Shown here: piece after piece, positions 7,458 through 37,217 of the stretch | Layout: the number at the start of each line of letters is the position of its first letter | How positions within the stretch are numbered: the first letter of the stretch is position 1 | Source of the DNA: a virus | IMG/VR virus record: IMGVR_UViG_3300034418_009484 | Span: 28,393-92,392 of that record | Reading direction: 5' to 3' (one strand) | DNA: 64,000 bases | The notes under the pieces: generated by a model | Told to the model about the DNA's origin: nothing | The model's database searches: none | Seen by the model: only the letters and a program-made list of their open reading frames with translations | Translations under genes and position numbers: made by a program

Positions 7458-9067
7458 TTAACATCTCCAGAATTATTTGTCAATTTAAGTCTTAGCTGAT
7501 CTATATTAAATCTTTTTATAGCTTGATTTCTAAATTCTTTAAATACAGATTCTTGTGTAATTCTATCTAGAGTCTTATCAAAAATCCTTACTTCTAAATT
7601 TAATGATTTTATATATTGCATCATTTTATAATTGTAAAGATGATATTGGTCTTGCAATAACTCTGAAAATATCCATTCCATAAACTGAACATTATTTAAG
7701 TTTTTAGGATAATCACTTGGTATTTCTTTTATTAACTGTTTAAAATTCCAAGGTAGTTTTTTATTGTTTGTTAAATCAAACCATTTTTCCCATACCTTAG
7801 CTGTTTTATCCCAATCGTATTTTTCTACACATAATGATCTAGTTCTAAGTCTTTTTTGTTTTATTTTATCAGGACTTATTTTAACAAAGTCTTTCATTAT
7901 TTTTAATAGTCTTTCATTATTTGGTCCTGATCTATCAGCATTAGTTTCAATTTCCCTATAAAGATTTGGCGATATAGGAAATCCATCAGTACTTAATACT
8001 ATATCTTCCATAGCAGAATAATCTATAGAGGCTATAGGAACGCCACATGCAGCAGCTTCCACTTGAGGCATACCAAAACCTTCACAAATTGCATATTGAA
8101 TATATAGGTCCATTAGATTGTAAATATTAATTAAATCTTTATGTTCAATTCCATCAGAAACGCCTGGGAATACACAAGATTTATTTCCACATCTTTTACA
8201 AACTGTTATCGCGTCTTTATATATCGAACTAAAATAATGATTACATAACCTGCATTTATATGTACATAAAATTTTTGATCCTAATCCAAATTCTGTAATT
8301 AAATCTGAAAACTCCCATCCCATTTTTTCTGGATAGCTGGTATGTATATACAAGTATGATTTGTTAGAAATCTCTACGGGACTTGTTTTTAAAAACTCAT
8401 TAAATGTTTTCATTAGTTCAGGAAACATCTTACGTTTTTGGTTTCTCATTACTGTCCCAAAAATAATACTATCTTCTGGAAGACCAAAAGATTTTTTATG
8501 TTTTCCTTTATTAGGAATAATATCAAGTTCATTTTTATTAACTCCTGGGTAAGCACAATCTACAGGGATTATTCTTCCATTCGTTTGATTTTTAATAGTT
8601 TTTATTCCATATTCTGAATAGGCTAAAAGAGTATCGCATCTATTAAAAAGATTATAAATCCAATCGGTCTTTTGTGGTGCGCTATCTATTGTGGGCATCC
8701 ATACCCAATTAAAAAATGGTAGAAGTGCGCTATCTGATATATATGCATCCATCCAGGGGTCACGATATGTGGCAACTATATCTGGTTGAAATTGAACGCA
8801 AATTTCATCAAACTTTAAAACACCCCATTGAACCAATGGTTGTTTGTGATGCTCCGCATATTCTTTTTCATTATTCTCTGGTGCTACACCAACAACTTTC
8901 CATTTACAATCTTTAAATTCTGAAGTTCTTGCATAACATGCTAATTCTAATATTTCATATTTATTAGTTGCATGAAGTCTACTTATAACCTCTTTTGAAT
9001 ATGTCCCAAATCCAGAAGCTAGTTTGTGTGACTCTGTTAGAAAGAGTATTCTTTTTTTTCTATTCAT
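7454..9067 (-). CDS. GT4-family glycosyltransferase with zinc-ribbon insertion
   Basis: 537 residues. The acceptor half begins with RILFLTESHKLASGFGTYS (glycine loop). The donor half contains IIFGTVMRNQKRKMFPEL and the GT4 motif CEGFGMPQVEAAACGVP, with E329 and E337 as the E-x7-E pair. Unusually, a zinc-ribbon-like insert with CRLC (272/275) and CKRC (290/293) sits between donor-domain strands. A C-terminal helical extension of about 110 residues follows the catalytic core. It likely transfers a sugar from a nucleotide donor onto phage- or host-surface glycan. Enzyme class is well supported; substrate is not. Confidence 0.8.
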   Translation of the reverse strand: MNRKKRILFLTESHKLASGFGTYSKEVISRLHATNKYEILELACYARTSEFKDCKWKVVGVAPENNEKEYAEHHKQPLVQWGVLKFDEICVQFQPDIVATYRDPWMDAYISDSALLPFFNWVWMPTIDSAPQKTDWIYNLFNRCDTLLAYSEYGIKTIKNQTNGRIIPVDCAYPGVNKNELDIIPNKGKHKKSFGLPEDSIIFGTVMRNQKRKMFPELMKTFNEFLKTSPVEISNKSYLYIHTSYPEKMGWEFSDLITEFGLGSKILCTYKCRLCNHYFSSIYKDAITVCKRCGNKSCVFPGVSDGIEHKDLINIYNLMDLYIQYAICEGFGMPQVEAAACGVPIASIDYSAMEDIVLSTDGFPISPNLYREIETNADRSGPNNERLLKIMKDFVKISPDKIKQKRLRTRSLCVEKYDWDKTAKVWEKWFDLTNNKKLPWNFKQLIKEIPSDYPKNLNNVQFMEWIFSELLQDQYHLYNYKMMQYIKSLNLEVRIFDKTLDRITQESVFKEFRNQAIKRFNIDQLRLKLTNNSGDVK

Positions 9068-9521
9068 TACAGTTTGCTTTTCTCAATTTTTTTACTAAGT
9101 TGTAAAATTTATTTTTTACAGAAGAAGAAGACTGATCTAAGATATTACAAATTTCTCTAAATTTATATCCTTCTACCCTTAAACTTAATATCAGTTTTTC
9201 ATCTCTTGTCATTTCATTAGTATAACATTCCCATAATTCATTATCAAGATTTCTTGAATAAAATTTATCAGAAACGTCTTGCAAAGATATATTTTTATGT
9301 TTATTATAATTCTTTATTTCTCTTATTATAGACCACCTGATTGGTCGCCAAGCATATGTAGATATGACATTTCCAGATTTTACATCATATTTTTTTAAAG
9401 CTTTCCATAAACCTATTCTTCCAGCATCCATATAATCTTGACGTTCTGTATAATTTTTAGGTTCAAAAGAATTTACAATCTTAGCTACCAAACCCATGTT
9501 TTCTTCTATTAATTCATCCAT
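9060..9521 (-). CDS. Sigma-70-family sigma factor (short)
   Basis: 153 residues. Region 2 is clear: DAGRIGLWKALKKYD and STYAWRPIRWSIIREIK, the part that binds the core polymerase and melts the -10 element. A shortened region 4 with a helix-turn-helix (KFREICNILDQSSSSVKNKFYNLVKKLR) ends the protein. Region 1 and most of region 3 are missing, as in compact phage and ECF-like sigma factors. It probably directs host RNA polymerase to phage promoters. It overlaps the downstream glycosyltransferase gene by 8 bases. Confidence 0.85.
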   Translation of the reverse strand: MDELIEENMGLVAKIVNSFEPKNYTERQDYMDAGRIGLWKALKKYDVKSGNVISTYAWRPIRWSIIREIKNYNKHKNISLQDVSDKFYSRNLDNELWECYTNEMTRDEKLILSLRVEGYKFREICNILDQSSSSVKNKFYNLVKKLRKANCNE

Positions 9522-9534
9522 TCATTTATCCTTA

Positions 9535-11157
9535 TTATATGCATTGATTCAATTTTTGTACACTTTTTAATAAAAAACTTCCTTTCTTTTTGTCTCTATT
9601 TCCTCTAAACAATAATATTTTTCCAATAGAAACCTTATCTTTTATTACTTTCCAATCTTCTGAAAAAACTGTGACACTATCTAAACAGCATGTATTATCA
9701 CTGATTTTTAGAAAAGCCATTACAGTGCCTTTATTTGGACCTCCTTTTATTTTCCATTCTCTAATATCTGTTACTTGTGCAGCAATAGCTATTGTTTTAC
9801 ATTCAAATCCTTTAATATATTCTCTGCAAGTACAATTAGCATCAATGATATCATATTCATCAATTTCTGAGCAAGTAAGCTCGATACCAAGAAGATCTCT
9901 TTCTTGTTTTGCTCTCCAAGACCATTTATCAATAAGTTCATATGGTGGAGACTCAAGACTTATAATAGAGCTTTTAATAAAATCTATATTTTTATCTGTC
10001 CATGCAGTTCTTCTTCTAATCTTAATATCATCAATAAGTCTTTCTAGTCCCTCTTTAAAAGTCTTAGACTTATCTTCTGATAAAAACTTCTTGTCTCTAT
10101 CTTTAATTTCTTTATAAATATTAAAGTCATAAAGCATCTTTGATCTATGTAGTCCATAACAATCAAAAACACCAGCTTTAATCATAGACTCAAATGAATT
10201 TGATTTAATAAATCTTCCAAGCCTCATTAAAAATTCTTCCCATTCCATTTCAGCTACATTAATATTATTAGTGGTAATGTAGCCGTGGAGTTGGTCGTAA
10301 ACGCTTTGCCCAACATTTTTTACATTAACGATTCCAAATGTTGGTTTATTATCAATCAATTTAAATTTAGCACTTAAATTCTTGATAGAAGGAGGAATAA
10401 TATCAATATCCATTATTCTAGCATTATTAACTAATTCGCTTATTTCATCAAACGGTTTTGGTTTACCGTCAGCATGTCTTAAATAAGAAGTAAAAAATGC
10501 TCTGGGAAAATGTGCTTTTGCATAAGCTGTTTGATATCCATTGTAAGCATAGCTAATACTATGACTTTTGTTGAATGAATATTTTTGCGATTTTTCAATC
10601 CAGCTAAAAATTTCCTCTGCTTCTTCCTCTGTAAACTTTCCTACCTCTTTTGCTCCTGTAAAAAACTCTTTCTTAACTTGAGCCATGAGGTCAACCTTTT
10701 TCTTACCAATAGCCTTTCTAAGATTGTCTGCTTGTTGCAAAGAGAATCCTGCAACTAGTTGTGCAATCTGCATAGCCTGTTCCTGATAAACCAGAATGCC
10801 ATATGTGCTTTTAAGAACAGGTTCTAGGTCGTTATGGAAATATTCAACAGGGTCTTTTTTAGATTTTCTATCAATATAATGCTGAGTTAATGATTTACCA
10901 TCAACAATAGCATCGCCGCACCCCGGCCTAATGATAGCAATAAGATCTGAAAGTTCTTCAATACTTCTTGGTTTTACTTCTTTAGCTTTGCTTTGTCCAA
11001 GTTGAGACTCAAGCTGAAAAACACCTTTTGTATTTCCTTCACATATCATATCCCATGTTCTATCACAGTCTAATGGCATATCTTCAATGTTAGGATTAAA
11101 TACAGGCAATCCCTTATCATTTTTTTCAAATTTACATCCACATGGGAATTCAATCAT
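9535..11157 (-). CDS. dnaE: DNA polymerase III alpha subunit, C-terminal part (split DnaE)
   Basis: 540 residues that continue where the N-terminal part stops. TKGVFQLES near residue 45, LSDLIAIIRPGC, GILVYQEQAMQIAQ and FNKSHSISYAYNGYQTAY are the fingers and palm-proximal segments of DnaE after the third catalytic aspartate. A helix-hairpin-helix-like zone follows, and the last 110 residues (IAIAAQVTDIREW, GTVMAFLKISD) are the OB-fold that contacts single-stranded template. Together with the other part the length is about 1165, close to full-size bacterial DnaE. It is translated from its own start, overlapping the exonuclease gene by 4 bases. Confidence 0.9.
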   Translation of the reverse strand: MIEFPCGCKFEKNDKGLPVFNPNIEDMPLDCDRTWDMICEGNTKGVFQLESQLGQSKAKEVKPRSIEELSDLIAIIRPGCGDAIVDGKSLTQHYIDRKSKKDPVEYFHNDLEPVLKSTYGILVYQEQAMQIAQLVAGFSLQQADNLRKAIGKKKVDLMAQVKKEFFTGAKEVGKFTEEEAEEIFSWIEKSQKYSFNKSHSISYAYNGYQTAYAKAHFPRAFFTSYLRHADGKPKPFDEISELVNNARIMDIDIIPPSIKNLSAKFKLIDNKPTFGIVNVKNVGQSVYDQLHGYITTNNINVAEMEWEEFLMRLGRFIKSNSFESMIKAGVFDCYGLHRSKMLYDFNIYKEIKDRDKKFLSEDKSKTFKEGLERLIDDIKIRRRTAWTDKNIDFIKSSIISLESPPYELIDKWSWRAKQERDLLGIELTCSEIDEYDIIDANCTCREYIKGFECKTIAIAAQVTDIREWKIKGGPNKGTVMAFLKISDNTCCLDSVTVFSEDWKVIKDKVSIGKILLFRGNRDKKKGSFLLKSVQKLNQCI

Positions 11158-11843
11158 AATTCTATTCCAGAAAAACTATTTTTAAATTTGTCAACAGAAG
11201 ATTGTTTTCTATGAAATTTCATAAACCTAGTAATTATAGCAGCTTCTTCAAGAACGTCAACTAAGGCATCATGAGCCACTCCTGTAGCTTTCATGCCAAA
11301 AAACTTTCTCCAAGTATCCATCTTATAATCGAACGGTTCTTCAAGGTTTTCAAACCACCAGAACAAATTATCCATAGCATCTAGCTTAGTGACTTCTGAA
11401 AATGGCATTTTAATTTTATGTTTTTCACAAAGTCTTTTAGCTATGGGAATATCAAACCCTGTAATATTATACCCTGCGGGAATTGGTTGAGGGAACCATT
11501 GCCCAGGTTTTTTATCAACTGTATATTTTGAACACCATGTAGAAAAGTTTTTCCATGCGACTTTTTCTGTAACTCCTGTTTTCCATTTGTCTAATATTTC
11601 TTCAAAAGACACGCCATAGTTATCTGCGTGCCATTGAATTGTTTTTTCTCGCTCATCTGTTAAATATTCTTTTTTATTGATACCATCTGGTTTGATAACA
11701 ATATTAAATGATTGATCTTTTTTTACTTCTAAAGTTTCTGGATCAATAGGTACAGCGGCTAGTTGGACAGGATTACACGTTTCTCGGTCTGGAGAGTCCG
11801 TTTCAAAATCAAAACAAATAATCCATCTAGTATTTTTAGGCAT
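11154..11843 (-). CDS. DEDDh 3'-5' exonuclease (DnaQ-like)
   Basis: 229 residues with the DEDDh set: CFDFET near residue 10 (D12, E14) for ExoI, GYNITGFDIPIAK for ExoII, and AHDALVDVLEEA for ExoIII with its histidine and aspartate. Such enzymes proofread by removing mismatched 3' ends. The gene lies exactly between the two parts of the split polymerase, so it is probably the proofreading subunit of this replisome. It has no clamp-binding or C-terminal polymerase-binding extension that I recognise. Confidence 0.9.
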   Translation of the reverse strand: MPKNTRWIICFDFETDSPDRETCNPVQLAAVPIDPETLEVKKDQSFNIVIKPDGINKKEYLTDEREKTIQWHADNYGVSFEEILDKWKTGVTEKVAWKNFSTWCSKYTVDKKPGQWFPQPIPAGYNITGFDIPIAKRLCEKHKIKMPFSEVTKLDAMDNLFWWFENLEEPFDYKMDTWRKFFGMKATGVAHDALVDVLEEAAIITRFMKFHRKQSSVDKFKNSFSGIEL

Positions 11844-11871
11844 ATTTATTCTCCCTTTTATTTATATTCAT

Positions 11872-13749
11872 TTATTCTCCACTAACTATGTTTACAACAT
11901 CCATAACTTTATCTAACCCTCTAATTGCTAAACAGTCTAATTTTAAAAGTCCAACTTCCTCACAGCTTGGACCTTCAAAACCAGCCAACATTCCTTTTCC
12001 TTTATTATCTAAAACCATTGGGCAAGACTTGCTAATTGGATCATTAGAAACAACAATTCCAGCAGCGTGTTTTCCTGCAATAATTTTAGTATGCTCTATA
12101 CGAATAGCTTGCTCAAATATCTTTGCGAATCTCCCCTCTAGTTTATTATCCTTCCCTAAGTAGCACCAGTTCTTTAATTTATCTGGAGTATTTTCTAATG
12201 CCCAAATAATACTTGATGAATATCCATATTCTTCTTCGATATCTTGCAGTTCGTCTGAAACACTTGCTGGCTCAGGCAGACACTTTGTAATTGCCTTTTG
12301 TTCTTCAAAACTAATATTTCCTCTCGCCGCCATAGTTCTAGTTAATGCTGCCTTACCTTTTAATTTTTGGAATGTAATAATTTGGGCAACATTTTCTTCG
12401 CCATATTTATTTTTAATATATTCAATTGTTTCTTCTCTAGCGGCTTTAGGAATATCGAAGTCGATATCAGGCCAGGATATTTTACCAGGGGCATTTCTAC
12501 CCGCATTATAAAATCTTTCAAAGATTAGATTATATGGTATAGGATCTACCTGTGTGATACTCAAAAGATTAGAAACCATACATCCAGCAGCACTTCCTCT
12601 ACCGGGACCAGTTATATAACCCTTGCTTCTTACGAATTGAAGAATATCGTCTACAATTAAAAAATAGCTTGATAAACCGATAGATGTAAATATATCTAAT
12701 TCGTTATTAACTCTTGCTCCATATTCAGAAAATTCCTTAGATTTATTATCTATGTTTATCATCTTTTTTTTCCAACCATCTCTGCATAATTTTCTTAAAT
12801 ATTCTTCTGGATTCATATTGCCAGGACATTTAAATTCTGGAGGTTGTGGAGATTTTGTAATATCATAATCTTCACACATATCCAAAATAAGATTTGTATT
12901 TTGAAGTTCTTCGTCGGTATGAAATACTTTCATATCATCATAAGATGGTATATGATAATTATTAGACAAAAATGAAGTCTTCAAAACATTGCTTGCTGCA
13001 CCACTTTTTAATTCTCTTTGCACTTGGCTTATAGTCTTTTTTAGAGCAGTGCATAAGAGAACTCTTTGGTCCTCTGCGTCTTCTCTCCTGCAATAATGAG
13101 CATCAGGAGTTGCAACACAAGGTATATTAGTGATTTTAGAAATTTCCCTAAGAGCATTGGCTACTGTACCAGCAAATTTATTAATCTTTGAGTCGATCAA
13201 TTGAATTTCAATAAAGAAATTTCCTTTACCAAACATCAACTCTAAATCTTTAGCTTTTGCAACACCCTTTTTCATCCAGTCAGGATCTAGTCTTTCGCCT
13301 TCTGTTATTGCATTGGCTAATGTAGAGCCTAAGTGACCGCTAAATGAAACTAAGTTCTTTTGTGAAGCAACGCAAGCCAAGATATCAGTATCAATCCTTG
13401 GCTTATGATAAAAGTGTTCTTTTTTATTAGAGATAGAAACCAAGGATAATAGGTCGTTCCACCCCTTTGCATTTTTAGCTATAATAACTTGATGATTTAA
13501 TTTTCTGTTATCTTTAACTTTTTCAGTAACAAGACCATTGCAAATGTACATTTCACAACCCAACAATGGTTGAAAGCCTGATGATCTTAATTCATTTGAA
13601 AAATCAACAGCGCCGCTTACATTTCCATGATCCGTTAATGCACAAGAAGTAGAACCTATTTCTTCTATTCTATCTGATATTTCATTGCACTTGCTAAGTC
13701 CATCAAGTAGTGAGTACTCACTATGTACATGCAATGGGGTGTATTTCAT
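11872..13749 (-). CDS. dnaE: DNA polymerase III alpha subunit, N-terminal part (split DnaE)
   Basis: 625 residues. The PHP domain opens the protein (HVHSEYS at 7-13, TDHG at 39-42, E66, PDAHY at 215-219), with most metal-binding residues present. The polymerase core follows: PGRGSAAG at 382-389, PDIDFD at 427-432 (catalytic D428 and D430), and LKLDCLAIRG with the third catalytic aspartate at 605. The chain ends at residue 625, shortly after that aspartate, so all three catalytic acids are here while fingers and OB-fold are in the other gene. There is no intein sequence at the break. Confidence 0.92.
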   Translation of the reverse strand: MKYTPLHVHSEYSLLDGLSKCNEISDRIEEIGSTSCALTDHGNVSGAVDFSNELRSSGFQPLLGCEMYICNGLVTEKVKDNRKLNHQVIIAKNAKGWNDLLSLVSISNKKEHFYHKPRIDTDILACVASQKNLVSFSGHLGSTLANAITEGERLDPDWMKKGVAKAKDLELMFGKGNFFIEIQLIDSKINKFAGTVANALREISKITNIPCVATPDAHYCRREDAEDQRVLLCTALKKTISQVQRELKSGAASNVLKTSFLSNNYHIPSYDDMKVFHTDEELQNTNLILDMCEDYDITKSPQPPEFKCPGNMNPEEYLRKLCRDGWKKKMINIDNKSKEFSEYGARVNNELDIFTSIGLSSYFLIVDDILQFVRSKGYITGPGRGSAAGCMVSNLLSITQVDPIPYNLIFERFYNAGRNAPGKISWPDIDFDIPKAAREETIEYIKNKYGEENVAQIITFQKLKGKAALTRTMAARGNISFEEQKAITKCLPEPASVSDELQDIEEEYGYSSSIIWALENTPDKLKNWCYLGKDNKLEGRFAKIFEQAIRIEHTKIIAGKHAAGIVVSNDPISKSCPMVLDNKGKGMLAGFEGPSCEEVGLLKLDCLAIRGLDKVMDVVNIVSGE

Positions 13750-14212
13750 TTAATTCCTCTATCTTTATTTTGCAACAGTTAAACTTAATTTCCATACCAT
13801 TTGATTCATCAACTTCGCCTTTTTTCAGATTAATTGATTTCTTAAAATAGTCTTTTTTATCAATCCATCCAGCAATCCATGCTCTTTTTGGAACATCGTT
13901 AATAAATTGTACTCTGACAAAAATATACCTATCAAATTTTTGTCTAGAATTATAGCTTTTAACTATACATTCGTGATAAGGTTTTGGTTCAGTGTTAGTT
14001 ATATCTGTTTTTACTCTATAGGAATTTTCTTCACAGATTAAATGGTAATCTTTATTTTCTTTTTCTGAACATTCTAATATAGACTTAAGTATTTCTAATC
14101 CTATTAGATCTTTTATTGTAAAATAATCTACTGATGATTTTATTAATCCTTTTTCAAAAGCTTTTTGACAAGAATTTTTAATAATATCTTTTGTTATTTT
14201 TACTTCTAGCAT
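13721..14212 (-). CDS. Conserved phage protein, possibly PD-(D/E)XK-like
   Basis: 163 residues. The C-terminal half has FDRYIFVRVQFINDVPKRAW followed by IAGWIDKKDYFKKS and LKKGEVDESNG. I associate this pattern with a conserved phage family sometimes placed near restriction-endonuclease-like folds, but I cannot name catalytic residues with confidence. It overlaps the polymerase gene by 29 bases and shares one base with the nuclease gene upstream, so a replication or repair role is likely. Confidence 0.55.
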   Translation of the reverse strand: MLEVKITKDIIKNSCQKAFEKGLIKSSVDYFTIKDLIGLEILKSILECSEKENKDYHLICEENSYRVKTDITNTEPKPYHECIVKSYNSRQKFDRYIFVRVQFINDVPKRAWIAGWIDKKDYFKKSINLKKGEVDESNGMEIKFNCCKIKIEELNEIHPIACT

Positions 14213-15303
14213 TAGTCTTGAACCTTTCCCCCACCAGAACCATATCTTCCATGAGTATGATCTGGATGAATATAATTTTCAGTAACCCATTCAATTCCAT
14301 TCTTTTTAATCATATATCTAATTTGTTCACATTTTGTCATAATCTCACCATATTTTGTTCTTTGCCCTGGTCTTTTTTCTACAATAGGCAATACGTTTTT
14401 AGAATCTTCAAAGCTAGTCATTCCACAATGACATAAATATTTACAGAAAAATCCTTGCTTTGGATTTACTTCTGGAATAGTTTTTGGCTCTTTTGTATCT
14501 CTGATATATTCAAATCTTTTACGAATTATTTCTTCTGTTCTTTCTAAATCAGAATCTTGGTAATGCACCGTAAATGGACCTCCTTGATTGATAAAGTAGA
14601 TTGACATTAGAAATGTCTCAACATCTGGATACATATGTTTACAAGCATAATGATACAGTCTTAATTGAGGATTGTCAAACAGATTTTCTTGAGTATATTC
14701 TTTCCCTGTTGCCCAGTCTTTTCTTTGTCCAGTTTTCCAATCAATAACTTCATAGACACCATCACCTAAATCAGCTATTAAATCTATAGTCCCTTTTAGT
14801 GCTAAATTACCAGACAGTCCATGTTCTTCATAATTATACTTTGCCCAAGGTTTATCAATTTCAAAATCAAAGTGAGGCTCTGCATCAACAACATCTCTAT
14901 TTCTAGGATCAAACATTCCTTTTCTATACTTTAAGGCTTTCCATGCCCAACTAACGCAGTCTTCAAAGTCTTTATTTGTCCATGCTTTTTTACCAACATG
15001 ATAGTCAAATATTTTTATATAATGCTCATACACCCTAGCGCCAATACTGTTAAGGTATTCTGGATCATAATTGTCAGTAAATACTTCTCCGATATCCTCA
15101 TCATCAATTACTTTAATTCCTTCTTGAGATGCCTTTTTACATAGAGCGGTTATCTCTAGGATTTTGTGAGTAATTGTTCCTTTGTCTGCTTTCTTATTTC
15201 CATCTCCTCTTAAACCTAAAACATATTCTGTGTAAAATTGCATTTCACAAGTTCTATGAGAATTAAAAGAACTGCTTCTAAAATAAACTATAGGAATTCC
15301 CAT
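14212..15303 (-). CDS. RecB/Cas4-like PD-(D/E)XK nuclease with probable Fe-S cluster
   Basis: 363 residues. The nuclease core shows KGTIDLIAD (metal-binding D) and YEVIDWKTGQRKDW (E-x-D-x-K-type end of the motif), then NPQLRLYHYACK, the conserved Q-x-x-x-Y helix of this family. One cysteine near the N-terminus (RTCEMQFYTEY) and three at the end (FFCKYLCHCGM) match the spacing of the [4Fe-4S] clamp in AddB and Cas4 nucleases. It probably processes DNA ends during phage recombination or replication. Confidence 0.85.
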   Translation of the reverse strand: MGIPIVYFRSSSFNSHRTCEMQFYTEYVLGLRGDGNKKADKGTITHKILEITALCKKASQEGIKVIDDEDIGEVFTDNYDPEYLNSIGARVYEHYIKIFDYHVGKKAWTNKDFEDCVSWAWKALKYRKGMFDPRNRDVVDAEPHFDFEIDKPWAKYNYEEHGLSGNLALKGTIDLIADLGDGVYEVIDWKTGQRKDWATGKEYTQENLFDNPQLRLYHYACKHMYPDVETFLMSIYFINQGGPFTVHYQDSDLERTEEIIRKRFEYIRDTKEPKTIPEVNPKQGFFCKYLCHCGMTSFEDSKNVLPIVEKRPGQRTKYGEIMTKCEQIRYMIKKNGIEWVTENYIHPDHTHGRYGSGGGKVQD

Positions 15304-15304
15304 A

Positions 15305-16132
15305 TTAAACTCCTAAGTCAGTTAGGTATTTACAATTTAATGAAGTTAACGCTCCATAAATAGCTTTGTTTTGTTCTGGAATATCCATTTTTGTATTGTC
15401 TATCACTTTACTACATAAGCTAAATTTAATCTTTTCGCTACTATGCTTGTCTTTTGATTTATAAATATCTCTTTTTAATCCAATAACAATACCAAGCTCA
15501 TCCTTTATCTTTTTAATTTCATTATCAAATCTTACATCTGAGATCAATGCTATTTTTGGATTATCTTCTTCTATTTTTTTCATTAAAGAATTAACCCATA
15601 TATCTTTATACATTTTACGCATTACATCCGTACCGAGGAATTGCATAAATTCGCGAGCGGTCATTGGACCTTCCCCTAATTTAATATTAAAATCTTCTGG
15701 ATTCTGAGTATACCCAGCAGCAACGCCACCTTGCCTCATTGACCATTCATGTGGAGTCATCACTCCCGGCATGTTTTCCCACAACAAATGTTCCTGTAGC
15801 TGATTCTTCTGCTCGTCTGTTCCATATACTTGAGAATGCTTAATTCCAAAAACATCTACACAGATTCTTTTAAGCTCTCCTGCCAAAGAATAAATTTTTA
15901 CATCATTAAAATTATTCATTACAGCAGCAACATTTACATCTGGTTGTCTAAATTCCATCCATTCTTTGTCATTGCTTTCTCCAAAAACATCTGAAACTTC
16001 TATAACACCCTTATCATTTAGCCTTGCCTTTTGACAAACGCCATTTTCTATCAATTTTAACATCAAGACAAAATTACAGCATGTGTCTTTTCCGCTTTGT
16101 TTTTTTCCTGCAAAACCAATTAATTGAGTCAT
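15305..16132 (-). CDS. Deoxynucleoside monophosphate kinase
   Basis: 275 residues. The P-loop is at the very start: GFAGKKQSGKDT (about residues 6-17). A later IALISDVRFDNEIKKIKDE fits the base- and lid-proximal part of T4 gp1-like dNMP kinases, with the conserved D-V-R-F-x-N-E. These enzymes phosphorylate dNMPs to dNDPs for phage DNA synthesis. The gene overlaps the primase gene by 4 bases. The exact substrate range cannot be read from sequence. Confidence 0.85.
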   Translation of the reverse strand: MTQLIGFAGKKQSGKDTCCNFVLMLKLIENGVCQKARLNDKGVIEVSDVFGESNDKEWMEFRQPDVNVAAVMNNFNDVKIYSLAGELKRICVDVFGIKHSQVYGTDEQKNQLQEHLLWENMPGVMTPHEWSMRQGGVAAGYTQNPEDFNIKLGEGPMTAREFMQFLGTDVMRKMYKDIWVNSLMKKIEEDNPKIALISDVRFDNEIKKIKDELGIVIGLKRDIYKSKDKHSSEKIKFSLCSKVIDNTKMDIPEQNKAIYGALTSLNCKYLTDLGV

Positions 16133-17274
16133 TTATAAATCTCCTTTGCCTTATTAATCCAAGGTCTAATATCTTCGGTTATTTCGTTAGTATTCATTTC
16201 TCCAACATCCTGTTTATTTATATCTAAAGTATAAACACGATATGATTTTTCACATTGTTCTTTGATTTTTTGAGCAGCTTTTTGACCAGCTTCATTTTCA
16301 TCATTGTCCATTATAATTATAATCGACAATGCCCCAGATTCGTCTATTAATTGTTTTTGAGGATTGTTCAAAACTGTGCCAAACAGGGCTACAGAATTAT
16401 GTATGCCTGCTTCTTCTAGTCTCCAAACATTTCCTGGCGATTCAACTATAACAATTACTCCAGATTCTAATATATGATCTTTTGCTTTATAAAAGTTATA
16501 CAACGATTTCTCTTTTTGAAACCCTTTTGAATGCCTCCATTTTGGAAAATGATAGCATTGTTTATTTGGGTCATGATATGATTTACATTCTTTACATTGC
16601 TCAAAAATACTTCTAGCGGTAAATCCTACTATCATATCGCCATCGTCATCATAGATTGGAACAACGGCTCTGTTAAAAAATTCTTTACCATAAGTGTTAC
16701 AATTTCCAACGTCATAGTCATCTAATACCTCAATAGTATATCCTCTGTTAAGAAAATATTTTGAAGGTATTTCGACTCGCTTTCTATAAAACTCTTTATC
16801 AATAGTTCCACTTAATTTGTTTTTAGATAAAGTGTTTACAACCTTGCAAAATTCATGATTACCTACATTTAATGACTGTGATTTTATTTGTCCAAAATCT
16901 AACTTATATCTATTTAATAGAAATTCAACTGTTTCATTAAACCCAACAGTTTTGTCCCCTGGTACTTTCCAATTATATTGAACATTAGAAAGTGCGCCTC
17001 TTATCATACTAAGAAGAGAAGTTCCAAAATGTTTTTCGCAACCATGAGTTCTGCATTTAAAGTGGACCCTATAATCTGCATCGTAGTATAAATTTAATGC
17101 AGTTTTATTATCACCTCCATGTATAAAGCAATTTGAAAAAAATACTTTTTGACCTTTATGATATTCAGCTTCAAAATATTCGTAAATATCTTCAATATTA
17201 TCTAAAACTATATCAGTTAACTGATTTAATTTCCCTTGATCTTTATATTTAAAATGCGATATCTTCTTCATCAT
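16129..17274 (-). CDS. dnaG: DNA primase (DnaG-like, zinc-binding + Toprim)
   Basis: 381 residues. An N-terminal zinc-binding domain is suggested by SNCFIHGGDN and FKCRTHGCEKHFG (C-H-C-C type). After a linker with HTH-like character comes the RNA polymerase domain, where FFNRAVVPIYDDDGDMIVGF fits the region before Toprim. Toprim itself shows VIVIVESPGNVWRLEEAG with its glutamate and IIIIMDNDENEAGQKA with the D-x-D pair. It would synthesise RNA primers with the helicase encoded next to it, whose gene overlaps by 26 bases. Confidence 0.88.
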   Translation of the reverse strand: MMKKISHFKYKDQGKLNQLTDIVLDNIEDIYEYFEAEYHKGQKVFFSNCFIHGGDNKTALNLYYDADYRVHFKCRTHGCEKHFGTSLLSMIRGALSNVQYNWKVPGDKTVGFNETVEFLLNRYKLDFGQIKSQSLNVGNHEFCKVVNTLSKNKLSGTIDKEFYRKRVEIPSKYFLNRGYTIEVLDDYDVGNCNTYGKEFFNRAVVPIYDDDGDMIVGFTARSIFEQCKECKSYHDPNKQCYHFPKWRHSKGFQKEKSLYNFYKAKDHILESGVIVIVESPGNVWRLEEAGIHNSVALFGTVLNNPQKQLIDESGALSIIIIMDNDENEAGQKAAQKIKEQCEKSYRVYTLDINKQDVGEMNTNEITEDIRPWINKAKEIYK

Positions 17275-18700
17275 TTACTTCATCTTCGGTTCTACTATTG
17301 GCTAATTCTTGTGCGGTCGGACCTTCTATTAATTTAGCATAAGCTCCTTGCATCATTACATTAATATAATCGCCTCCAGACAAGCCTTCTCCATGTCTAG
17401 AAATAATTGGAACAAGTTTTCTATTACCATTAGATATTCCGTCTTGAGCTATTTCTTCGTCTGACTTTTCTTTATAAATAGTAAAATTAGAACATAGCCA
17501 CATAATCCTATCTGAACCACTTGCAGCATCTGTAGATTCCTTTGTAATACCGTCCCTATTCAATTGAATAAAAGAAAGGATAGGAATCTCGTATCTTAAA
17601 GCAAAGTTATGTAGAGAGGTCATCATGAACCCCAGAAGCTGAAATTCTTTTAGATCTGTCTTTGCTAGTTCGGATGCTTCCATAAGCTTCAGATAATCAT
17701 ATACAATAACACAATCATTTGCTTTACCTTCTGCATTCAAACCAACTGTTTTTGCCAGCCATCTTCTCATAATAGAGACTTGATCTTCAAATGCTCTGCC
17801 TCCAATATTTTTATGATAAAAGGGAATATTTTTTAGCTCTTTTGCTAATTCCAATATAGAATTCTTTTGGAATGGGTTATCTGCGAATTTTCCAGTCTCA
17901 ATTTCATTGATACTAGATTTAGCATGATTACTGAATGATGACATTGCACCGCCTCTATTCTGCTGATCTTTTTTAGTCATTTCAGTATCAAGATATAAAA
18001 CAGGAACACCTCGTTTAGCAATATCAAATCCCATATTTAAACCGATAAGACTTTTGCCAACTTTTGTCCTAGCTCCAATGACATTAACAGTCCCCTTCCT
18101 TAATCCGCCTCCAATAGCAAAATCATATTTATTAAAGCCTGTAGGAATACCAATCTGATCTACTCTATTTTCGGCTCTATCAATTAAATATTCATCTAAA
18201 TCTCCGAATAAAAGTTCTGGAGCATCGTCTTGATCGTTTAGCAAAGAAGTAAAATCAAAAATTGATTCTTCTGCCATACCAAGAATATGAGATATAGGTT
18301 CATCGCCTTTAATATGAAGATACTTTTCTTTAGTTTCTTCAAGTTGATCGTACATCATTCTAGCTATTTGAAGCTTTCTTATCTTTGCGCCAAACTTTCT
18401 TATGTTTTGAAACGCAACAGGAAACTTTAAAACAGCACCTAAATGAGATAGCTCATTATTATTCGTAAAGAATGTATCAAGACCTATTTCTTTAGCAGAA
18501 GAAAGAACAGACGCAACATCTATAACCCTTGTATCGTCTTGTTCTATTAGTCTTTTTACACACGAATAGATAACAGAATTAGAATCAACAGTGAATGTAT
18601 TTTCATTTATTATGTCTGCTACGTCATAGTAAGCTTCTGTGCCATATTTACACACACCAGCTAAAACTGCACGTTCCGCAGCAGGATCTGACAAAATCAT
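17249..18700 (-). CDS. dnaB: Replicative DNA helicase (DnaB-like)
   Basis: 483 residues, near the usual DnaB length. The N-terminal helical domain (1-150) starts AAERAVLAGVCKY. The RecA-type motor has Walker A GARTKVGKS at 209-217, the H1a glutamate in VLYLDTEMTKKDQQNRG, Walker B in DCVIVYDYLKLM, and ILSFIQLNRD as the sensor region. Near the C-terminus, LVPIISRHGEGLSG fits the last DnaB strand. It unwinds DNA at the fork and should pair with the adjacent primase. Confidence 0.92.
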   Translation of the reverse strand: MILSDPAAERAVLAGVCKYGTEAYYDVADIINENTFTVDSNSVIYSCVKRLIEQDDTRVIDVASVLSSAKEIGLDTFFTNNNELSHLGAVLKFPVAFQNIRKFGAKIRKLQIARMMYDQLEETKEKYLHIKGDEPISHILGMAEESIFDFTSLLNDQDDAPELLFGDLDEYLIDRAENRVDQIGIPTGFNKYDFAIGGGLRKGTVNVIGARTKVGKSLIGLNMGFDIAKRGVPVLYLDTEMTKKDQQNRGGAMSSFSNHAKSSINEIETGKFADNPFQKNSILELAKELKNIPFYHKNIGGRAFEDQVSIMRRWLAKTVGLNAEGKANDCVIVYDYLKLMEASELAKTDLKEFQLLGFMMTSLHNFALRYEIPILSFIQLNRDGITKESTDAASGSDRIMWLCSNFTIYKEKSDEEIAQDGISNGNRKLVPIISRHGEGLSGGDYINVMMQGAYAKLIEGPTAQELANSRTEDEVNDEEDIAF

Positions 18701-31882: not shown

Positions 31883-32950
31883 TTAAGTTGAACCATCAAA
31901 ATGAGTACGATTTACCATAACTGCTTTAGAGCATTTTGACAAATCTTTTAGCGATGTTGCTCCAAGGTAGGCGCAACAACTTCTAAGTCCACCACATATT
32001 TCATTCATTATATTTTTAACTGGTCCTTTATATGCAATTTTTTTAACCCTCCCCTCGCTTGCTTTATAATTAGCCATACCTCCATTATGTTTGTTCTGGG
32101 CTTTTTCTGAGGACATACCATAGAAAATCAAGCTTTTCTTTTCTAAGTTGGGCAAATATTCCCACTCACCTTCGCACTCGTCTGCTCCTGCCAGCATACC
32201 ACCAAGCATGACAAAATCTGAATTGGCAGCAAATGCCTTACAAACATCTGCCGGTATTCTACATCCTCCATCAGCACATATTAATCCCATTCTTTTCTCA
32301 TCGCTTTTCAATCCATGAGCGGCATGACTACACTCTATTATAGCAGACAATTGAGGATATCCGACACCAGTTTTTAGTCTAGTAGTACAGGCTGATCCTG
32401 GCCCAATCCCAACTTTAACAATATCAACACCTCCATGCAGAATTAATTCGGAAACCATCTCTGGAGTACAAACATTTCCAGCCATAATAATCGGCTTAGA
32501 ACCATAATCAAATGAATTCCTTACATCTGAACACCATTCAACAAATTTTTCTGTATATCCGTTCGCAATATCAATGCAGATATTTGGACACCATCCCAAC
32601 TTATAAACTACTTCATTAACTTTTACTAGATCTTCTTTTTTCATCCCTATGCTCATCCAAACATTTGAACAGCAATCAGAATATTCATAAAAAGAAAGTA
32701 TTTTTTCAGCAGTATAATGTTTATGTAAACAAGTTATTGCATTAAAATTCAACAATTCGGAACCCATTGAAAAAGTTCCAGTAGTATCCATATTGGCTGC
32801 CATGATTGGCAAACCATTCCATTCTTTGTTTGAATGAAAAAATTTATATGTTCTGTCAAGTTTTACATCTTTTCTGGATGCATTCGGACTTCTACTTGGA
32901 ACCAATAGAATATCATCAAAATCTAATTTTATATCGTTTGAAATTTTCAT
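31883..32950 (-). CDS. guaC: GMP reductase (IMPDH/GMPR family)
   Basis: 355 residues, the usual length. KVGIGPGSACTTRLKTGVGY holds the catalytic cysteine loop, ICADGGCRIPADVCKAF the phosphate-binding D-G-G, and FVMLGGMLAGADECEGEW the nucleotide loop. The adjacent GYPQLSAIIECSHAAHG resembles GMP reductase more than IMP dehydrogenase, and no CBS domain is present. It converts GMP to IMP, balancing purines, which fits with the reductase, dUTPase and dNMP kinase in this window. Confidence 0.88.
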   Translation of the reverse strand: MKISNDIKLDFDDILLVPSRSPNASRKDVKLDRTYKFFHSNKEWNGLPIMAANMDTTGTFSMGSELLNFNAITCLHKHYTAEKILSFYEYSDCCSNVWMSIGMKKEDLVKVNEVVYKLGWCPNICIDIANGYTEKFVEWCSDVRNSFDYGSKPIIMAGNVCTPEMVSELILHGGVDIVKVGIGPGSACTTRLKTGVGYPQLSAIIECSHAAHGLKSDEKRMGLICADGGCRIPADVCKAFAANSDFVMLGGMLAGADECEGEWEYLPNLEKKSLIFYGMSSEKAQNKHNGGMANYKASEGRVKKIAYKGPVKNIMNEICGGLRSCCAYLGATSLKDLSKCSKAVMVNRTHFDGST

Positions 32951-33504
32951 TATTGTCCAGAACTCCCAAATCCTTTTTTGCCTCTATCGCTATTAGAAAG
33001 CTCATCTACCTCGACTAAATGAATGTCTGGAACTCTTTGAAATAAAATTTGAGCTATTCTATCTCCTTTTTTTATTGTAACACTTGGATCGTTTTCATCA
33101 GCAAACAATTGTAATTGGTTATTTGTATTGTACAGACATACCATTATTTCGCCTCTATACCCAGAGTCAACAACTCCTGCTAGTACATCAAGACCCTTTT
33201 TTACAGAAAGTCCAGATCTAGGCCAAATCAAACCAACCCATTCGTCTGGTATTTGTAACGATATTCCAGTCTTAACTATTTTTCTTTGACCTCCAGCAAT
33301 AACAACATCTTCTGTTGAATACAAATCCCATCCAGCATCAGATAGATTTGATCTAGTTGGCATCTTAGATTCTTTTGATAATAATTTTGCCCTAACTTTT
33401 CTAGAAAATTCATTAGCACCACTATCTATTCTTTTTAATTTATTAAGCATTTTAATGCTTTCATTCAATTGTTTTAGTCTCGCGTCATTATCTGGATGAT
33501 TCAT
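32950..33504 (-). CDS. dut: dUTPase
   Basis: 184 residues. Conserved motifs in order: SDAGWDLYS (motif 1), IWPRSGLSVK (2), GVVDSGYRGEI (3, catalytic Asp), GDRIAQILFQRV (4) and RGKKGFGSSG (5, the flexible P-loop-like tail). An N-terminal helical extension of about 45 residues precedes the barrel. It hydrolyses dUTP to dUMP, keeping uracil out of phage DNA. The enzyme should form a trimer; the extension is unusual but not disruptive. Confidence 0.93.
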   Translation of the reverse strand: MNHPDNDARLKQLNESIKMLNKLKRIDSGANEFSRKVRAKLLSKESKMPTRSNLSDAGWDLYSTEDVVIAGGQRKIVKTGISLQIPDEWVGLIWPRSGLSVKKGLDVLAGVVDSGYRGEIMVCLYNTNNQLQLFADENDPSVTIKKGDRIAQILFQRVPDIHLVEVDELSNSDRGKKGFGSSGQ

Positions 33505-33507
33505 ATA

Positions 33508-34590
33508 TTATTCTCCAAAAATTATTTTTTTAACTTTATCGCTAGAATTTTTCCAAGACAATTCTTTGGAAGTTTCTATTCCATGTTGATTTACTTTAAA
33601 AGGGTTGTCTTTCCAAGAATTATACTCTGTTTTAAATGCATTAACTAATTGCTCATAAGAATTTCCTTCTAAGGATGCCCATGTTCCGTTATCTCCTATA
33701 AACCATTTTCCATCATAAATAGATTCTTCTTGTTCTATATCTATAAGATTACAATTTTGATTATTGCAAAATTCAGTATGAGCAGAATAATTCGTTGTAA
33801 TTATTTGTTTACCCATAGCCATCATTTCTAAAATTTCTAGATTCCAACCTTCTGATCTTGCTGGAAAAACACCACAATAAACATTAGATATTATATCAGC
33901 CAGTTCTTCTTGCCATTGTACCCTTGGTATTAATTTAATTCTATCTTCTCTATATTTAGATTCCCAATAGCCTTTTTCTTCTTGATTTAGAAATGGATTT
34001 TCTGTCATCATCCATAGTTCAACATCGTGGTTCATTGGAAAAGCATCTTTAAAAGCCCCGCATAAAACGTCATGACCTTTTCTTACTTCCCATTTACCGC
34101 AATTAAAGAAAATGCATTTAGAGGTATTTGGTTTATTTAATTGTTCATTGAAGATATTCCTATCAACACCGCAAGGAACAACATGCACATAAGAACCTAC
34201 ATATTTATCAACTATTTCTTTAGCCCATTTTGATGATACAATAATTTCATCCGCAGATTGCAAATGACTTCTTCTTCTATTATCAAATTTATTTACTTCA
34301 AAAAAAGGCCAAGCAACAAACTTTCCTTTTCCAATCCTATCTGCCAATTGATTTTCATGCCAGATTTTTAATGTTGGTAGAGTAGCGTCAAATAGGTCTT
34401 GCTTTTGTATTGAATCTTGCAGAAAAAACTTTTCACTATCTTGGATTAAGCATGGAGGTGAAACTTGATTAGCTATTGGAAACAATGTTGTATCAACATC
34501 TGGATCTGAATTTAGACTTTTCCATATATTGTATCCTACGACTCCATACCCTAAACTGTTTATAGGTGCATTTAAATTTAACTTATTCAT
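33508..34590 (-). CDS. GT4-family glycosyltransferase
   Basis: 360 residues. The acceptor half carries GYGVVGYNIWKSL and DEIIVSSKWAKEIV, then VVPCGVDRNIF, the linker to the donor domain. IFFNCGKWEVRKGHDVLC is the donor loop, and SEGWNLEILEMMAMGKQII supplies the E-x7-E motif. It is well apart from the main glycan loci, among nucleotide genes, so it may modify DNA-associated or virion targets, or belong to an older insertion. Substrate unknown. Confidence 0.82.
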   Translation of the reverse strand: MNKLNLNAPINSLGYGVVGYNIWKSLNSDPDVDTTLFPIANQVSPPCLIQDSEKFFLQDSIQKQDLFDATLPTLKIWHENQLADRIGKGKFVAWPFFEVNKFDNRRRSHLQSADEIIVSSKWAKEIVDKYVGSYVHVVPCGVDRNIFNEQLNKPNTSKCIFFNCGKWEVRKGHDVLCGAFKDAFPMNHDVELWMMTENPFLNQEEKGYWESKYREDRIKLIPRVQWQEELADIISNVYCGVFPARSEGWNLEILEMMAMGKQIITTNYSAHTEFCNNQNCNLIDIEQEESIYDGKWFIGDNGTWASLEGNSYEQLVNAFKTEYNSWKDNPFKVNQHGIETSKELSWKNSSDKVKKIIFGE

Positions 34591-34644
34591 TTATTTCCTA
34601 ATAAAAAAAGATGCAATAAAAATTGCTATTGCTAATTCAATCAT
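34591..34644 (-). CDS. Possible 17-residue membrane micropeptide
   Basis: A tiny frame from ATG to TAA encodes a hydrophobic peptide with a basic tail (MIELAIAIFIASFFIRK). GGAG lies 6 bases before the ATG, good spacing for a ribosome site, and the stop abuts the glycosyltransferase start. It sits between a terminator and the next gene. Its length allows chance; the ribosome site and hydrophobic composition raise the odds. Confidence 0.3.
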   Translation of the reverse strand: MIELAIAIFIASFFIRK

Positions 34645-34653
34645 AGTTGCTCC

Positions 34654-34688
34654 AAAAAAAAATCCATGTGAACATTAGCCCACATGGA
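34654..34688 (-). terminator. Intrinsic terminator after thioredoxin-like gene
   Basis: TCCATGTG and CACATGGA form a perfect 8-base minus-strand stem with a 10-base loop, then nine T residues. It follows the thioredoxin-like gene by about 30 bases and ends the block of exported proteins. Confidence 0.88.
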
Positions 34689-34717
34689 ATTATACTTTAG
34701 GATTCTGAATTATGGAC

Positions 34718-35125
34718 TTAATTTTTAAGCCATTCTTTCATAAAAGAAGCATTTTTTGAACCAATGAATCTTTTAATTTCGTTCCATCTTTTTAATTTCT
34801 CACTCCATGAATATTTAACAACTAAAGGAATAGTTGTTGGCTTTGAGTAGTCTATCCACATTTTAGTTGTTTTATCTTTTTTTTCAATATCTAAAATGTA
34901 GTATTTAATTTTTTCCGACTCTACATACTCTTTCATTTCTTGAGATTTCATAATATTTTTTAATTGCCTACATGGACCACACCAGTCTGCACTAAATTGA
35001 ATTACTATCTCTTTTTTAATATCTTTTGAGTTTACTGGTTGTTCAGCACAACCTTTTTTACAGTTATTCCCACCACAACATGCCATGATTAATATCCCTA
35101 GAATCATTAATTTTTTTTTGAACAT
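34718..35125 (-). CDS. Thioredoxin-like lipoprotein
   Basis: 135 residues. The N-terminus is a basic/hydrophobic signal (KKKLMILGILIMAC) with a lipobox-like L-I-M-A-C, so it is probably membrane-anchored outside the cytoplasm. The thioredoxin active site is WCGPC in QFSADWCGPCRQLK, followed by a cis-proline region (TTIPLVVKYS). It could reduce disulfides at the cell surface or help the exported neighbours fold. Another guess, reductant supply to the ribonucleotide reductase, is unlikely if it is exported. Confidence 0.8.
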   Translation of the reverse strand: MFKKKLMILGILIMACCGGNNCKKGCAEQPVNSKDIKKEIVIQFSADWCGPCRQLKNIMKSQEMKEYVESEKIKYYILDIEKKDKTTKMWIDYSKPTTIPLVVKYSWSEKLKRWNEIKRFIGSKNASFMKEWLKN

Positions 35126-35126
35126 T

Positions 35127-35279
35127 TTACTTGCTCTTGTAAGGACAATGTTTACAATTATTATTACAACATTTTCCTCTTGACTTCAAGAACTTTTCCG
35201 TAAATACAACTTTATTATCTACTATGTAGTAGTCTATATTTTCAATAAGCTTTTTATTATCTTGGACCTTGTTGACCAT
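35127..35279 (-). CDS. DUF5522-like small cysteine-rich protein
   Basis: 50 residues from the start I prefer, though the ribosome site is weak and an earlier start exists. VFTEKFLKSRGKCCNNNC and KHCPYK match the C-C-x-N-x-C-x-x-C-P-Y pattern of the DUF5522 family, seen in several bacterial phyla. The cysteines may bind iron or zinc. It overlaps the upstream secreted-protein gene by 23 bases. Confidence 0.65.
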   Translation of the reverse strand: MVNKVQDNKKLIENIDYYIVDNKVVFTEKFLKSRGKCCNNNCKHCPYKSK

Positions 35280-35547
35280 TATAAAAATTAAATGTTTGAA
35301 CTTGAGGAATGTGATAAAAACCATAATTTATTCCCATTCTAACATGCCTTCTATATGGATCAACATATACAGGACCGACATTCAAAGATGTTCCTTGAGG
35401 CAACCAAACAACATAAGGTTGATAATAAACCCTGGGAGGATTATATCTGTAGTCATGGGGATGCTGATGATTTTGCCAAGGCCAATGAGCCTCTGCTGTA
35501 GCAGCAAATAATAAAACGCCTAATAAACCAATAATTAAATTTCTCAT
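35257..35547 (-). CDS. Small secreted Tyr/Pro/His-rich protein
   Basis: 96 residues. NLIIGLLGVLLFAATAEA is a clear signal peptide with an A-x-A cleavage site, and the mature part is rich in His, Pro and Tyr (HWPWQNHQHPHDYRYNPP). No enzyme motif. Such proteins are common in planctomycete genomes; here it sits beside DUF1501-type and Tat proteins, suggesting the group was acquired from a host. Confidence 0.65.
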   Translation of the reverse strand: MRNLIIGLLGVLLFAATAEAHWPWQNHQHPHDYRYNPPRVYYQPYVVWLPQGTSLNVGPVYVDPYRRHVRMGINYGFYHIPQVQTFNFYNGQQGPR

Positions 35548-36773
35548 ACAATCTCCTTTAAAATGTTTTTAGAATCTTCCTTGACTATATCATGCGGACG
35601 ACCATCAACGCCAGTCCATCTTGTTTTCTTTTCCATATCTAAATGGTCAAATATTGTCCAGGCTAAATCCTCTGGTGTACAATGACCACTTTCTGCCTCA
35701 TCTGCATTTCCATTTGAAGCACCAATAGTTCTACCCATTTCGTAACTACCACAACTAATCATTAGTGGTGCAAGTTTTCCAAAATGATCTCTACCTTGGT
35801 TTTGATTTACTTTTGGAGTTCTTCCAAACTCAGAAGTCACGATAAGCATTACACGCTCGTACATACCTCTATGTTCTAATAAATCCATAACTTTACAAAG
35901 ATAGGCATCTAATTCTTTTTGTCTAGTTTCTAATGAAGCACCTATATTTTGATGCATGTCCCAGCCACCCATATTAAGCGTTACAAATTTAGAACCTGCT
36001 TCCAATAGACGGATCGCAGTTAAACAATCAGTTCCAAAACTTGTAGCCTTAAAACGGTCATAATGACTGTCTTCTTCTACTTTAAAAGCCTTTGAAGTAC
36101 TTCCTAATATAATATCAACAGACTGTTCTCTCAAATCTCTCCAATCTTTTGACATTTGTTGGTTTCTTCCAATAAATCCATTATCAATTACATTTAATGC
36201 ATGTAATCTTTTTCTAAAGTCATCACTCTTGCCAAGAAGTTGTAGGTCTTTTCTGCCTTCTCTGGTTGCGTCAAAACCCATATATTTACCACCCAACCAA
36301 GCGGCATCATCATGTTGTATTTCTCCCATTTTAATATATGTAGGCAGTCCATCATCTGTATTTGGACCATGATATTTTGCCATACAACTACCGTAACTGG
36401 GCCATTTTGAACTAGTACCAGCACCAAAATTAGCTTCTCCGGTTACTACCCAATGAACAGCAGATGCATGGTTCTGATCCCTATGACCGAACGCTCTAGG
36501 AATAGCTATTTTGTTGGTTCTGCTAGATAAATTCTCAAAAAGACCACCTAGCTCTATGCCTGCAACATTAGTTTTCCTAGCGCCTGTCACGCTTCTACGA
36601 TCAGCAGGAGCATATGGTATAGGATTAAAAGTTTCAATATGAGAAGCACCACCTCCGAGAAACAGGAATAGTACTGCGGGATCGTCTTTTTGTTTTTCTT
36701 CTGCATATGCTGCGCTTATGTTACCTACTAAAAAACCAGAAGTTCCACATTTAATAAAATCTCTTCTTTTCAT
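35544..36773 (-). CDS. DUF1501-type exported protein (Tat signal)
   Basis: 409 residues. The N-terminus MKRRDFIKCGTSGFLVG is a twin-arginine (Tat) signal. LFLFLGGGASHIETFNP matches the first DUF1501 motif (sulfatase-like phosphatase fold), FVTLNMGGWDMHQN the central D-x-H metal site, and VTSEFGRTPKVNQNQGRDHFG the last metal-binding block. DUF1501 proteins abound in Planctomycetota and are thought to act on sulfated or phosphorylated polymers. Its presence in a phage is unusual. Function on a substrate is not known. Confidence 0.85.
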   Translation of the reverse strand: MKRRDFIKCGTSGFLVGNISAAYAEEKQKDDPAVLFLFLGGGASHIETFNPIPYAPADRRSVTGARKTNVAGIELGGLFENLSSRTNKIAIPRAFGHRDQNHASAVHWVVTGEANFGAGTSSKWPSYGSCMAKYHGPNTDDGLPTYIKMGEIQHDDAAWLGGKYMGFDATREGRKDLQLLGKSDDFRKRLHALNVIDNGFIGRNQQMSKDWRDLREQSVDIILGSTSKAFKVEEDSHYDRFKATSFGTDCLTAIRLLEAGSKFVTLNMGGWDMHQNIGASLETRQKELDAYLCKVMDLLEHRGMYERVMLIVTSEFGRTPKVNQNQGRDHFGKLAPLMISCGSYEMGRTIGASNGNADEAESGHCTPEDLAWTIFDHLDMEKKTRWTGVDGRPHDIVKEDSKNILKEIV

Positions 36774-37216
36774 CTAAACCATCTCCTTCTTATTGTCGTT
36801 CTTCTTTTTTTATTGTGGTCATCGTCATGTAGTTTTTGGAGTTGGTCAGTTGACAAAGTGTTTAAATACGATTTATCAAACTTATGATTAGCCCCAGCAA
36901 GGTGAGATATTAATGCCATTCTACTTTGTGCTTTATTCCAACTTCCGTTTACGTTCCACTTAGGATCGTAGTAACGGTTTTCATTGAGGTCGGTTTCGGC
37001 ATAGATGGTCGTGATTGCTTGCTCATCGCCCGCGAGAGTTTTCACCAATGTTTCACTGCAAACAGAGTCGGAATAATCAGACGCTTTAGCTAATTCCCAC
37101 TGGTCGCAAAACCACTGCTCGCTGAATTTGTATTCTTTTGATTCGCATTTTCTAGCTAAAGCAGCACCAAAGAAAGGTGCTGCTGCTAAAACCTTTATAA
37201 AATTTCTTCTTTCCAT
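36770..37216 (-). CDS. Small Tat-exported protein
   Basis: 148 residues. MERRNFIKVLAAAPFFGAAL is a twin-arginine signal. The mature part has a conserved-looking KLHDDDHNKKRR end and WNVNGSWNKAQSRM, with helices but no enzyme motif. It overlaps the DUF1501 gene by 4 bases, so the two are probably cotranslated and exported together, perhaps as partners. Confidence 0.65.
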   Translation of the reverse strand: MERRNFIKVLAAAPFFGAALARKCESKEYKFSEQWFCDQWELAKASDYSDSVCSETLVKTLAGDEQAITTIYAETDLNENRYYDPKWNVNGSWNKAQSRMALISHLAGANHKFDKSYLNTLSTDQLQKLHDDDHNKKRRTTIRRRWFR

Positions 37217-37217
37217 A

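Follow-up and report, generated by a model that had tools for sequence, protein, structure and literature searches.

Can a DnaE-type replicative polymerase be cut through its active site and still serve a phage as its own polymerase? The question is raised by a stretch of viral DNA of 64,000 nucleotides (the window), which is part of a 92,392-base virus record (IMG/VR record IMGVR_UViG_3300034418_009484, positions 28,393 to 92,392). An earlier note, made from the sequence alone, had read positions 9535-13749 as a DnaE-type polymerase divided into two genes with a proofreading exonuclease gene between them, and three minus-strand open reading frames are indeed found there in that order. We consider it very likely that this module encodes the phage's own replicative C-family polymerase, a non-covalent enzyme of two chains with a dedicated, co-translated DEDDh proofreader. 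What carries this reading is i) the gene structure, ii) the tiling of both chains on full-length DnaE, iii) the conservation of their residues, iv) the single origin of the split, and v) the constant order of the module.

Position of the break

The module in the window consists of the following features:

11872-13749, minus strand: polymerase N chain (PHP, palm and thumb), 625 amino acids; catalytic D428, D430 and D605
11844-11871, minus strand: gap of 28 nucleotides between the N chain and exonuclease genes, with a Shine-Dalgarno-like AAGGGAG
11154-11843, minus strand: DEDDh (DnaQ-superfamily) exonuclease (Exo), 229 amino acids; D12, E14, D131, H191 and D196, with conserved F220 and F224 near the C terminus
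11154-11157, minus strand: ATGA overlap of 4 nucleotides between the stop of Exo and the start of the C chain
9535-11157, minus strand: polymerase C chain (fingers, helix-hairpin-helix and OB fold), 540 amino acids; tau-binding domain and canonical internal clamp-binding motif both absent
11065-11157, minus strand: Cys cap at the N terminus of the C chain (C6, C8 and C31), an extension specific to the clade and missing from the fused DnaE examined

Each polymerase half is present in one copy in the virus record, and Pfam matches over cut-off were obtained for both: PHP (1.5e-32) and DNA_pol3_alpha (1.8e-63) for the N chain, and DNA_pol3_finger (2.1e-46) and HHH_6 (1.9e-6) for the C chain. The N chain stops 20 residues after the third catalytic aspartate, D605, and the C chain resumes with the fingers, both as the earlier note had it. 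In sequence alignment to Mycobacterium tuberculosis DnaE1, the N chain reached residue 597 and the C chain restarted at 607. AlphaFold models, one per half and built from alignments of relatives (mean pLDDT, the predicted local distance difference test score, 90.9 and 92.1), matched the DnaE structures 2hnh, 4jom and 5lew, with 25-33% identity to bacterial DnaE over the modelled parts: residues 1-625 of the N chain corresponded to residues 4-575 of E. coli alpha (2hnh; Z 38.8, 561 residues, 2.9 Å), and residues 12-358 of the C chain to residues 576-911 (4jom; Z 21.0, 329 residues, 4.2 Å). Since the two halves tile E. coli alpha, nothing is missing at the break, and the cut lies at the palm/fingers border. 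Further on, the alignment of the C chain extends to about residue 1074 of E. coli alpha (5fku) and ends with the OB fold, and the structure alignment found no counterpart in this chain of the tau-binding domain (about residues 1075-1160 of E. coli alpha). Thus the sum of 1165 residues given earlier is correct, but it comes near full bacterial size only by chance: the C chain lacks the tau-binding domain, while both chains carry extra residues.

The ends that face the break look native: the N chain of the window closes with a helix, three further residues and a stop (...VSGE), while the C chain has a start Met of its own and opens in a folded cap. Neither chain matched an intein family in Pfam or carried a Hint domain at the end facing the break, in agreement with the earlier note, and Rfam returned no intron in the window or around the break. 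The PHP domain is uninterrupted and Exo is a separate gene, unlike in PolC, where the exonuclease domain is inserted in PHP. The polymerase is a split variant of the DnaE-type C-family polymerase and not an ordinary DnaE, with two genes in place of a single polypeptide in all 141 contigs that hold the complete module. Translation of Exo and the C chain is likely coupled through the ATGA overlap.

In the mechanism that we propose, the N and C chains would fold separately and then pair without a peptide bond. The N chain would bring PHP, thumb and palm together with all three metal-binding aspartates, the C chain would bring fingers, helix-hairpin-helix and OB fold, and the active site would form only once the two chains restore between them the palm/fingers interface found in ordinary DnaE. 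The co-translated DEDDh exonuclease would act as a dedicated proofreader, and in most lineages a Cys-containing cap would cover the new N terminus of the C chain. The cut would go back to a single event in the common ancestor of this large group of phages, probably a rearrangement at a gene often invaded by mobile elements, and would then have been fixed. The earlier claim that the enzyme must be assembled from three polypeptides is narrowed: two chains would be needed for the active site, with the exonuclease as a probable third subunit.

Distribution, single origin and conservation

Relatives were gathered by scans of viral contigs and of genome contigs. The arrangement was present in 149 distinct other contigs, with identities to the window from 100% down to about 35%; the complete N-Exo-C module was found in 141 of these, on one strand and with no exception in order, and the remaining partial contigs held N-Exo (seven) or Exo-C (one). 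This exonuclease was not found at any locus with a fused polymerase. The earlier note had asked for a structural mapping of the break and a search for the same order in related phages, and had named a frameshift, a full-length polymerase in close relatives and residues missing between the parts as grounds for giving up its claim; none of the three turned up.

In a tree of 59 sequences (quick search, with several long outgroup rows and support from the Shimodaira-Hasegawa-like approximate likelihood ratio test, SH-aLRT, only), the 31 split representatives formed one clade (SH-aLRT 100, stem 0.93 changes per column), apart from both cellular and fused phage DnaE. Therefore the split, read most simply, happened once in this clade and was then kept. 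The arrangement is ancient and widespread in uncultured phages. Two relatives (L188 and L189), whose C parts were 95-96% identical to that of the window, lay within a metagenome-assembled genome labelled Candidatus Lokiarchaeota (JABXKB01); they are probably misbinned phage contigs, because the module is bacterial in type and accompanied by a sigma-70 factor.

The catalytic residues are conserved in both halves. D428, D430, D605 and R384 of the N chain were invariant in 49 of 49 sequences, the three aspartates being kept in all further loci aligned, and in the C chain QE125-126, R147, KK152-153, N196 and H199 were invariant in 47 sequences. Judged from these residues, neither polymerase half looks like a relic. 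As for Exo, the D-x-E, D and H-x4-D motifs of a DEDDh enzyme of the DnaQ superfamily are all present, and this DEDHD set (D12, E14, D131, H191, D196) was intact in each of the 152 loci that cover all five positions. Its profile matches in the PDB include PolC exonuclease, ExoI and DnaQ; it also matched phrog_255 exonuclease (5.6e-8) and, slightly below that family's cut-off, Rv2179c-like in Pfam. F220 and F224 are almost invariant, and the tail that holds them is a candidate for docking.

The PHP domain, on the other hand, has two fates. The main clade retains all nine metal positions (H H D H E H H D H, with His replacing Cys at one of them), and in the window's own lineage both the PHP and the exonuclease centres are intact. 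In about 40 loci that make up a subclade (L031, L135-L175) a PHP stretch is deleted and the metal ligands are replaced (pattern N K K ... Y), leaving an N chain of about 530 amino acids, but the polymerase aspartates and the exonuclease motif are intact. As the PHP centre has been erased where the exonuclease motif was kept, Exo is the likelier proofreader, and probably that of the split polymerase.

Features around the core module

For clamp contacts, we scanned with a simple pattern of the QxxLF type, anchored on E..LG of the OB region. A strict match stood 30-39 residues before the anchor in eight of 10 anchored cellular DnaE rows, and such a motif was also present in one fused phage DnaE. 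None of the 26 anchored split-clade representatives carried it in place, as far as a simple pattern can tell (a divergent motif is possible): most had N-P-P-Y-x-L-x-D-x-x-x-W there, and one (L050) had an off-register QAMLDE. Moreover, no homologue of the beta clamp (PF02767) was detected in the virus record, which is possibly incomplete. The canonical clamp motif, the tau-binding domain and a detectable beta clamp are all missing, which bears on how the enzyme becomes processive.

Of 47 sequences, 44 carried C6-x-C8 and C31 in the N-terminal extension of the C chain. The other three (L021, L022 and L103) lack CxC and share D at position 31 with ordinary DnaE, and this joint loss suggests that the extension caps the new end, either as a metal-binding or as a structural element.

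Mobile elements have entered these genes in several relatives. A naturally split intein lies inside the N part of L101 (3835-6126) at GPGRG/SAAG, so that this phage would need trans-splicing plus N/C assembly; the C part of L031 (11018-13850) is interrupted at FNK/SHA by another, whose halves flank a DUF559/VSR-like endonuclease gene in the 'fractured gene' layout; and L024 has an in-frame intein in the C part. Furthermore, an endonuclease-like gene stands between N and Exo in L060, and in L079-L086 (e.g. L079:3108-6101) a LAGLIDADG endonuclease gene interrupts N just before the catalytic DxD, followed by a reading frame with about 90 extra N-terminal residues; Rfam returned no intron at the interrupted N gene of L079. 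None of these inteins and insertions is at the N/C break, but such invasions make a rearrangement plausible as the origin of the split. A further intein-like insertion, after 'EVIDWKG' and ending 'PTHN', was seen in a PD-(D/E)XK nuclease gene of 662 amino acids (L081:1123-3111). C-family polymerase genes annotated as several pieces were also noted in Staphylococcus phage MVC_VPHSA1 (L121) and in Alicyclobacillus phage MMB025 (L124), the fingers of the latter being interrupted by an endonuclease gene.

In most relatives the slot between N and Exo holds a small gene of about 57-79 amino acids, of one of three unrelated-looking types that follow the clades ('VGDKF..NG.EY.K...RVSCC', 'LSLKYPFIKKV' and 'YQVWSDRH.EY..Y.NIDDAV.KFIELK'; e.g. 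L004, L043, L044, L046, L056, L057, L062, L137 and L162). These genes had no Pfam match and possibly encode a small accessory subunit of the polymerase. The window has only the 28-nucleotide gap at this place, and no homologue of the small genes was found elsewhere in its record. The spacing between Exo and C ranges from overlap to 3.9 kilobases, with other genes intervening in L046. A fusion of Exo and C by frameshifting at the ATGA overlap was considered as well and set aside, as spacings of this size show that it is not general.

The genes next to the module in the window are as follows:

9060-9521, minus strand: sigma-70-like factor, downstream of the module and adjoining it in close relatives too
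14212-18700, minus strand: upstream replication genes in the same run, namely the next four
14212-15303, minus strand: PD-(D/E)XK nuclease
15305-16132, minus strand: deoxynucleoside monophosphate (dNMP) kinase
16129-17274, minus strand: Toprim primase
17249-18700, minus strand: DnaB-like helicase

Genes for a RecA-like protein and for the large subunit of ribonucleotide reductase also belong to the upstream run. PolA (PF00476) was not detected in the virus record; PolB was not searched, and the record is possibly incomplete. Apart from replication, positions 31883-44530 of the window hold a glycosyltransferase, a dehydrogenase and two proteins of the phrog_3980 type, one of which has a HAD-like N-terminal part; together they suggest a cluster for sugar or surface modification.

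Alternative readings and known systems

Among the alternatives, the one to which we give most room, although we think it unlikely, accepts the two-chain polymerase but not Exo as its proofreader: PHP would proofread, and Exo would work in recombination or RNA turnover. The intact PHP metal positions of most of the clade and the weak match of Exo to Rv2179c, a 3'-5' exoribonuclease family, speak for it. Against it stand the loss of the PHP centre where DEDHD is kept, the PDB matches listed above, and the position of Exo between the halves in every complete locus, insertions notwithstanding. That the halves become one chain, either after translation (through a split intein that escaped recognition or some other ligation) or in the RNA through an overlooked intron, is quite improbable: the split inteins of relatives do sit in these same genes, and C-family genes of other phages are also interrupted by endonuclease genes, but the two ends at the break in the window are native or capped and free of Hint domains, no Rfam intron was found, and what lies between the halves is a conserved exonuclease rather than an intron reading frame, with up to 3.9 kilobases of other genes in L046.

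Slightly less probable still is that one or both halves are relics and a host polymerase replicates the phage. The missing tau-binding domain, canonical clamp motif and beta clamp homologue do set the enzyme apart from an ordinary replicase; yet both halves keep their catalytic and nucleotide-binding positions without change at about 40-80% sequence identity, the module is set among primase, helicase, dNMP kinase, RecA-like and ribonucleotide reductase genes, and a relic would not remain intact in 141 contigs. To an artefact of sequencing or assembly, or a frameshift, we attach practically no weight. Nothing in its favour was found, and while the window's record alone would be insufficient to exclude it, it is refuted by the relatives: the same break recurs in 149 other contigs of one supported clade, where the halves have their own start codons, a clade-specific N-terminal cap and, between them, an intact gene (229 amino acids in the window). 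Several points nevertheless weigh against a phage replicase with its own proofreader: i) a host polymerase could still replicate the genome, the module being used otherwise; ii) PHP, its metals being intact, may share the proofreading in the window's lineage; iii) Exo could act elsewhere, in recombination or on RNA; iv) the Exo protein had no match in 50,697 phage records, and no isolate with the module was found.

Compared with known systems, the module resembles bacterial DnaE with DnaQ/epsilon in its content (PHP, palm, thumb, fingers, helix-hairpin-helix, OB), its catalytic residues and its separate DEDDh exonuclease. It differs in being encoded by two genes cut at residues 575|576 of E. 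coli alpha with the Exo gene between, and in lacking the tau-binding C-terminal domain and the QxxLF internal clamp motif. Cyanobacterial DnaE is split elsewhere, in the fingers, and is joined covalently by a split intein, unlike the phage enzyme with its intein-free break at the palm/fingers border. That cyanobacterial enzyme is likewise encoded in two genes (PMC3919608). The earlier note had rightly set the window's split apart from the cyanobacterial one but named no precedent among phages. The closest is Rossellomorea phage phiT1 (PV767480; gp20/gp19/gp18), whose C-family polymerase is split at the same palm/fingers border, but with a small reading frame of 49 amino acids and no exonuclease between the halves, and without a Cys cap. 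In the tree phiT1 falls on another branch, grouping loosely with the fused MTATph1 and BpsS-36, so its split is probably independent; no publication describing its arrangement was found, nor any relative of its N part in viral contigs. Rhodococcus phage MacGully, Microbacterium phage Tedro and Bacillus phage vB_BpsS-140 also encode a C-family polymerase in two adjacent genes, but cut at the PHP/palm border, so that the polymerase active site stays in one chain. In group 2.2 jumbo phages, a minimal PolIII-alpha (only catalytic and template-binding domains) is split into two proteins expected to reassemble, with genes far apart and a family B polymerase alongside (Iyer et al. 2021, PMC7824862); unlike in the present clade, there are no other PolIII domains and no exonuclease between. 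Thus split phage C-family polymerases are already known, and what appears to be new here is a DnaE-type polymerase divided through its active site with a probable proofreader encoded between the halves, an arrangement described neither in the polymerase survey PMC11348598 nor in the rest of the literature searched, which was incomplete in coverage. Surveys of polymerases can easily overlook the clade, because gene callers score each half as a fragment of its own.

More tentatively, we suggest that these phages form a stable clade with a heterodimeric C-family polymerase of shared active site and an obligate DEDDh proofreading subunit, which would hold DNA without canonical beta-clamp and tau contacts, possibly with the help of the small slot proteins. 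A cut between palm and fingers, which together build one active site, is rare among replicative polymerases, and a clade that keeps it, with the probable proofreader gene in between, serves as a natural experiment in how far a replicase depends on a covalently continuous chain. It also supplies a polymerase in two components that could be assembled under control, and the lost clamp and tau contacts raise a testable question, namely from where the polymerases of these phages draw their processivity.

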